This document shows, piece after piece, positions 2,191-2,888 of a stretch of DNA of 53,983 nt. The notes beneath the pieces are model-generated. The model was given only the letters and a program-made list of their open reading frames with translations, had not been told where the DNA came from and did no database searches. Every line of letters begins with the position of its first letter. Within the stretch, counting starts at the first letter, position 1. The position numbers and the translations under genes are program-made. Source of the stretch: Vulcanimicrobiota bacterium (GTDB lineage Bacteria > Vulcanimicrobiota > Vulcanimicrobiia > Eremiobacterales > Eremiobacteraceae); contig JABCYQ010000020.1 in the NCBI GenBank assembly GCA_013290125.1, positions 1 to 53,983 on the forward strand, read 5' to 3'.

Positions 2191-2294
2191 TTGAAGCGGG
2201 TTTTCCGCGCGACGGCCCTGCGCCCTGTTTTCAAGCATGTAGGCATTCGCGATAGTTGTGGAAAACGAGTCAAGCCTTAAGAATTGGAGGCGAA

Positions 2295-2888
2295 ATGACC
2301 GCACGACATTCTAGCTCGCTCGTCTGCGTTGCCGCATTGTCGGTGGCGCTGACGTTCAGCGCCGCGCCCGCGGCGTCAGCCGCAGCCGATGCGGCTTCGC
2401 CGGCGCCGACACCGGCCATGGCGGCAGCTGGAACGGTGGCACCCGCCGTGTCAGGCGCGTCGACATTCGCGGGCAAGATCGAACAGTTCGATCTTTCGAA
2501 GGCATTGGCAAAAGGCGCGGTCGTGCTGTATTTCTTCCCGAAAGCGTTCACCTCTGGCTGAACGATCGAGGCGAAAGCCTACGCCGCCAGTTTGGCGGAT
2601 TTTGAAAAACTCGGCGCGACGGTTGTCGGGATTTCCACCGATCCGGTAGATGTGCTTGCAAAGTTCCAGACCGCGACGTCGGCGCCGCAGCGTTTCGTCT
2701 CCGACCCGAAGGGAACGGTCGCAACGGCATACGGCGTTGCGTTCGCCTACAATGGGGGCGTGCTCGCCGATCGCGTCACGTTCGTCATCGGCAAGGACGG
2801 GAAAATTCTGTTCGCGCTTCACGAGCCGTCGCCGCTCACGAACGTTCAGACGACGCTGGCGTGGCTGACCAAGCATCCGCAGAACTGA
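2295..2888 (+). CDS. Exported peroxiredoxin (AhpC/TSA, BCP-like) with in-frame TGA at the peroxidatic position; candidate selenoprotein
   Basis: Read through the TGA at 2559-2561, this is one 197-residue protein. The start at 2295 follows GGAGG and gives a signal peptide and an Ala/Pro-rich linker (residues 1-55). The thioredoxin-fold core has VVLYFFPKAFTSG, then the TGA (residue 89), then TIEAKAY. This is the PxxxTxxC peroxiredoxin active site with TGA exactly at the peroxidatic cysteine. Downstream VVGISTDPVDVLAKFQ, the conserved Arg of DRVTFVIGKDGKI and the C-terminal helix are intact in the same frame. No cysteine follows, so there is no resolving thiol. A hairpin with GU in the loop starts 22 nt after the TGA. 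I infer a periplasmic 1-Sec peroxiredoxin that reduces peroxides. The alternative is a nonsense mutation or sequencing error. No sel genes lie in the window. The last 28 nt overlap the next gene. Confidence 0.8.
2584..2598 (+). promoter_or_regulatory. SECIS-like hairpin downstream of the in-frame TGA
   Basis: CCGCCA (2584-2589) and TGGCGG (2593-2598) pair perfectly around a GTT loop. It can also be drawn as 5 bp with loop AGTTT. The stem starts 22 nt and the loop 28 nt after the TGA at 2559-2561. Bacterial SECIS elements sit inside the coding sequence just 3' of the UGA and carry a G and U in the apical loop for SelB, which fits. I see no bulged U in the stem, and short GC hairpins are common in DNA this GC-rich, so the call rests on its position. 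Confidence 0.5.

Follow-up and report, generated by a model that had tools for sequence, protein, structure and literature searches.

A peroxiredoxin frame with one internal TGA

The window, i.e. the whole 53,983-nucleotide stretch of Vulcanimicrobiota DNA analysed here, belongs to contig 20 in the 55-contig draft genome of a soil bacterium, which amounts to 2.9 Mb and is 95% complete. Near the beginning of the window, a plus-strand frame preceded by a Shine-Dalgarno-like motif is open from its ATG to its terminal stop except for a single internal TGA (Table 1), and encodes a predicted exported peroxiredoxin (hereinafter designated Sec-peroxiredoxin). A promoter scan found no promoter, and the neighbours of the gene, an opposite-strand gene ending upstream and a 4HBT thioesterase gene downstream, give no functional clue.

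Table 1 Features of the Sec-peroxiredoxin locus, in window coordinates
Feature	Position	Strand	Details and basis
Shine-Dalgarno-like GGAGG before ATG 2295	2286..2290	+	Read from the sequence
Putative Sec-peroxiredoxin gene	2295..2888	+	197 aa, Sec89; stop TGA 2886-2888; frame, Pfam, orthologs, model
Predicted signal peptide, residues about 1-30	2295..2384	+	By-eye call, orthologs, N-terminus of the model
TGA codon, candidate Sec at the peroxidatic position of PxxxTxxU	2559..2561	+	Alignment to peroxidatic Cys; TGA in 10/11 family orthologs
Putative bacterial SECIS hairpin CCGCCA-GUU-UGGCGG	2584..2598	+	Apical loop 28 nt after UGA; folding, conservation, published rules

The N-terminal segment MTARHSSSLVCVAALSVALTFSAAPAASA, ending in ...SAAPAASA, was called a signal peptide by eye on the basis of its N-terminal charge, hydrophobic core and AxA sites. 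The same architecture is apparent, again by eye, in both Sec and Cys orthologs, and the N-terminus is of low confidence in the AlphaFold model. The predicted mature protein contains no Cys, leaving the Sec position alone.

The read-through protein matches Pfam AhpC-TSA with 92.6 bits (cut-off 26), and its alignment to solved PrxQ/Bcp peroxiredoxins runs across the TGA, which coincides with their peroxidatic Cys. The original prediction, that two undamaged halves of one peroxiredoxin share a frame and are separated only by a TGA at the C of PxxxTxxC, is borne out by this alignment. The features expected of a peroxiredoxin (the fold, PxxxTxx(C/U) and a conserved Arg) are all present, the last two as P82, T86, U89 and the invariant Arg160. 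The AlphaFold model (pLDDT 90) is best matched in the PDB by M. tuberculosis BcpB (5epf; TMt 0.89); BcpB and Sulfolobus Bcp1/Bcp4 are the closest solved structures in both sequence and fold, but these are Cys enzymes whereas the enzyme of the window is predicted to be a Sec form. Although the nearest structures are of Bcp type, the best NCBIfam model of the PrxQ/Bcp subfamily, PRK09437, scores 65 bits against a curated cut-off of 140, and we therefore label the protein PrxQ/Bcp-like only. The PrxU equivalog NF040737 is likewise missed (50.2 bits, 270 required), and the protein lacks the resolving cysteine that marks 2-Cys peroxiredoxins. On all computable criteria, the predicted gene product is a peroxiredoxin and a selenoprotein.

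Selenocysteine machinery and candidate SECIS elements

The genome of the window contains a tRNA-Sec (72 bits, UCA anticodon), selA (535 bits) immediately followed by selB (277 bits over its full length), and selD (378 bits), whose reading frame contains a TGA at the CAGU position. All four genes of the pathway (selA, selB, selC and selD), the presence of which had been proposed as a check, are thus found in one genome. Across the 14 family genomes, SelB passes the cut-off in 13 (all but G003), and 12 (all but G003 and G011) have a tRNA-Sec scoring more than 65 bits; G003 and G011 are fragmented or incomplete drafts. The selD gene (L176, G000:C26:37000-40356, TGA at 1461) appears itself to be a Sec gene, with a candidate SECIS, GCGCAA-GUC-UUGCGC (33 nt), picked out by inspection where the folding program favoured another structure.

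A hairpin with GU in its loop had been noticed 3' of the TGA of Sec-peroxiredoxin. Bacterial SECIS elements are described by a loop of 3-9 nt, a stem of 4-16 bp, a G in the first two loop positions, a spacing of 16-37 nt and an MFE of -7.5 or lower (PMC13188914). The window hairpin falls within these constraints (loop GUU with G first, 6 bp, 28 nt, -8.6 kcal/mol when folded alone), and none of 200 shuffled sequences reached equal stability. Taken singly, the window hairpin does not stand out among synonymous recodings (fraction about 0.1), owing to the GC-richness of the DNA; what carries the hairpin argument is conservation across genomes. The peroxiredoxins of the same family (hereinafter designated f1) keep the stem CCGCCA/UGGCGG with a loop G[G/U][U/C], 28 nt from the UGA, and codons +8 to +12 read GCC GCC AGG/AGT TTG/CTG GCG in 10/10 f1 genomes, with no other synonym used. 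The ten genomes share about 50-83% protein identity in this gene, and many of its other conserved codons differ. Wherever position +10 is Arg (eight genomes), the codon used is AGG, which makes up only 2 of the 124 Arg codons of the reference set. No covariation is found in the f1 peroxiredoxin stem, since the stem is invariant. At the same place, the gene of a second family (f3; L020, L161) carries a quite different stem, UCUCCGCU/AGCGGAGA, and no such hairpin is present in the Cys gene of the congener G002 or in the Cys genes of family f2.

The genome of the window also encodes a second, unexported Bcp-type peroxiredoxin (L162, G000:C2:69000-72500) with a TGA at 1435 in the peroxidatic site DDTAGU and a strong SECIS, AGUCGGCG-GUC-CGCCGACU, kept in eight other family genomes. 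This paralog and its orthologs have the hairpin AGUC[G/A]GCG-GUC-[C/U]GC[C/U]GACU at 29 nt, in which 3/9 sequences show a compensatory G-C/A-U double change. A third Bcp-like TGA group (L190, L196-L199) is associated with another type of candidate SECIS, with a loop AGUUCC/AGUUUC 16 nt after the UGA and a stem such as GGCGUCGC/GCGACGCU. Support for the putative SECIS of Sec-peroxiredoxin is given by the invariance of its stem, the distinct f3 stem and the paralog hairpin, and the occurrence of the same loop on unrelated stems suggests that SelB follows a single recognition rule in this lineage.

Orthologs, the second cysteine and a thioredoxin partner

Orthologs of Sec-peroxiredoxin were sought in 61 relatives and, phylum-wide, in 149 genomes. 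Ten other genomes of the same Eremiobacterota family have one, and 10 of the 11 family orthologs, the window included, have TGA at the peroxidatic codon (the other nine being G001, G003, G005-G008 and G010-G012); the exception is G002 (L011), a congener of the window, with TGC. TGA is also found in both informative members of f3, G039 and G075, the contig of the latter ending four bases before this codon. The phylum-wide search of 149 genomes yielded no additional complete TGA form. Of the 80 relatives retained from the genome collection, 77 have TGC/TGT and three have TGA; the three are named public contigs identical over the aligned stretch to G007 (Candidatus Eremiobacter sp. RRmetagenome_bin22), G003 (a Candidatus Eremiobacterota bacterium) and G010 (an unidentified bacterium), and these identities assign the family to Eremiobacterota. 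No ortholog has a sense codon other than Cys at this site. The candidate selenoprotein of the original prediction has gained TGA-bearing counterparts in nine other genomes of its family and two of a second family, and its proposed comparison of ortholog codons returned only TGA and Cys codons.

The portion 3' of the TGA has diverged between the window and G001 with a dN of 0.038 and a dS of 0.55 (dN/dS about 0.07), indicating that purifying selection acts on the predicted protein beyond the TGA. In the tree, the Sec forms and G002 constitute one clade (100/98), within which G002 groups with the window and G001 (99/98). Because G002 is nested in the Sec clade beside these two, we interpret its Cys codon as most likely a Sec-to-Cys reversion; besides selB and tRNA-Sec, G002 retains a further Sec gene.

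A second Cys at +40 from the peroxidatic Cys is present in all 24 distinct Cys sequences from Eremiobacterota that fall outside the Sec clade (those checked in the second Eremiobacteria family) and in 77/77 Cys homologs from named genomes. It is absent from 11/11 distinct Sec forms and from the reverted G002, and the Sec orthologs have no second Cys anywhere in the peroxiredoxin domain. The change from Cys to Sec thus went with the loss of this residue, which we infer to be a resolving Cys lost in the Sec lineage. The earlier proposal of a 1-Sec periplasmic enzyme with no resolving Cys agrees with this distribution. The exported 2-Cys PrxQ/Bcp-like enzymes of Comamonadaceae, sphingomonads and the second Eremiobacteria family (about 37-50% identity) share export, fold and motif with Sec-peroxiredoxin but differ from it in having a peroxidatic Cys and the second Cys at +40 (...SECRSKF...) and in having no SECIS.

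In 8/11 family orthologs, an exported TlpA-like thioredoxin (WCxPC) adjoins the peroxiredoxin downstream or is fused to it. It is the next gene downstream in G003, G006, G007, G008, G010, G011 and G012, and the partner protein matches Pfam AhpC-TSA/Redoxin/Thioredoxin. In G005 (L019/L174), the two are fused in frame into a 332-aa protein whose thioredoxin part has lost its signal peptide. A TGA in the TlpA match of G007 was considered as a further Sec codon and rejected, as it precedes the start of that gene. In the f2 genomes compared, the best of the listed thioredoxin matches are on different contigs from the Cys-peroxiredoxin or far from it. The TlpA partner is not at the locus in the genus of the window, where the 4HBT thioesterase occupies its place; unlinked exported TlpA-like proteins of this genus are found on C27 and C11. 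From the linkage and the fusion, the exported TlpA-like thioredoxin is more likely than not the reductant of the selenenic acid for the family as a whole. For the genus of the window, where the partner is missing from the locus, a TlpA-like reductant is a guess and correspondingly less probable.

Fusion of a peroxiredoxin to its own reductant domain is familiar from the Prx-glutaredoxin hybrid enzymes. The G005 protein resembles these in its layout but differs in joining a Sec-peroxiredoxin to a TlpA-like thioredoxin, in one genome only.

A probable exported selenoperoxidase in Eremiobacterota

The comparisons above support a Sec gene with a SECIS, a complete decoding machinery, selection on the encoded protein, loss of the second Cys and linkage to a thioredoxin. 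The UGA is almost certainly read as selenocysteine, and we put at roughly 0.88 the probability that this is a true selenoprotein gene, decoded by SelB and tRNA-Sec, whose product would be an exported PrxQ/Bcp-like peroxidase dependent on an external thiol reductant. The scheme that follows is our inference on selenium insertion, export, peroxidase function and the reductant. The UGA would be translated as selenocysteine via SelB/tRNA-Sec with the hairpin as guide, and the signal peptide would export the product, which would fold as a PrxQ/Bcp-like protein. In the cell envelope, the Sec selenol would reduce peroxides and become a selenenic acid, which would have to be reduced by an outside thiol because no resolving Cys is left. 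The likeliest donor would be the exported TlpA-like thioredoxin (WCxPC) that is the next gene in most relatives and fused in one; in the genus of the window, that role would have to fall to a TlpA-like protein encoded elsewhere.

A nonsense mutation or an assembly error in an ordinary Cys-peroxiredoxin could give the same local sequence, as TGC and TGA differ by one base and the assembly is a draft of 55 contigs. Such a pseudogene or error is highly improbable, since the TGA is common to ten family genomes and two of the second family, the portion downstream of it is under purifying selection, the SECIS codons are kept and the second Cys was lost in step; an assembly error in particular is very unlikely, given that the genomes sharing this TGA were assembled separately. 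We attach next to no weight to a genome-wide reassignment of TGA to Trp, Gly or Cys independent of selenium, in favour of which the open frame is the sole observation. Of the 39 long non-overlapping ORFs of the window, 17 end in TGA, as does the Sec-peroxiredoxin frame, so TGA is not reassigned; moreover, the Sec machinery is complete, and all three TGA genes examined in this genome have the TGA at a catalytic Cys position.

Two further alternatives accept a selenoprotein but differ as to its product or role. Translation might mostly terminate at the UGA, so that the signal peptide and a stub would be the main product and synthesis of the full-length protein would require abundant selenium. 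Termination is a common fate at Sec-UGA codons in general and the sequence says nothing on readthrough efficiency, but the strong purifying selection downstream of the TGA implies that the full-length protein matters, and we consider a mainly truncated product quite improbable. Alternatively, the protein may be a thiol-oxidising factor that uses peroxide to drive disulfide formation with its TlpA partner rather than a scavenger, as linkage and fusion to a TlpA-like protein suit transfer of oxidant as well as reduction of a peroxiredoxin. TlpA/ResA-type proteins are mostly reductants, and the PxxxTxxU peroxide-binding motif and invariant Arg160 are kept, although these are compatible with both readings; we regard the oxidising role as unlikely and prefer an exported selenoperoxidase that is reduced by an external thiol.

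Sec-peroxiredoxins with a TxxU motif are a known group (PMC1088965, PMC1794560, PMC13188914), so the kind of protein is not new. The bacterial members, including PrxU of Eubacterium acidaminophilum and the Sargasso Sea Prx family, share with the enzyme of the window the AhpC/TSA fold, Sec in PxxxTxxU and a SECIS directly downstream. The latter differs from them by its signal peptide, by having no second Cys in the predicted mature protein, by its origin in Eremiobacterota and by linkage or fusion to a TlpA-like thioredoxin in its family. A periplasmic Prx selenoprotein is not mentioned in the comparative papers and the 2026 review that we searched (PMC1088965, PMC1794560, PMC13188914), and the exported, 1-Sec, thioredoxin-coupled form predicted here is new relative to that literature. 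A search of the open literature for Eremiobacterota, Vulcanimicrobiota or WPS-2 together with selenium returned no relevant paper, which is weak evidence as subscription journals lie mostly outside such a search; selenoproteins of Eremiobacterota/Vulcanimicrobiota seem undescribed in the open papers covered. The thioredoxin partner, the Sec-to-Cys reversion and the tie between Sec and loss of the resolving Cys go beyond the original prediction.

Taken as a cell-envelope selenoenzyme module of Eremiobacterota, these genes probably trace a path on which an exported 2-Cys enzyme became a 1-Sec enzyme with no resolving Cys and a dedicated, exported TlpA-like partner was gained and once fused. One lineage would later have returned to Cys with loss of the SECIS, its resolving Cys remaining absent. 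Automated annotation likely splits or truncates such genes at the UGA. The natural series of 2-Cys, 1-Sec and reverted 1-Cys enzymes lets one ask why Sec is kept and whether it removes the need for a resolving thiol, and the TlpA linkage suggests which electron donor to test with an exported selenoperoxidase.
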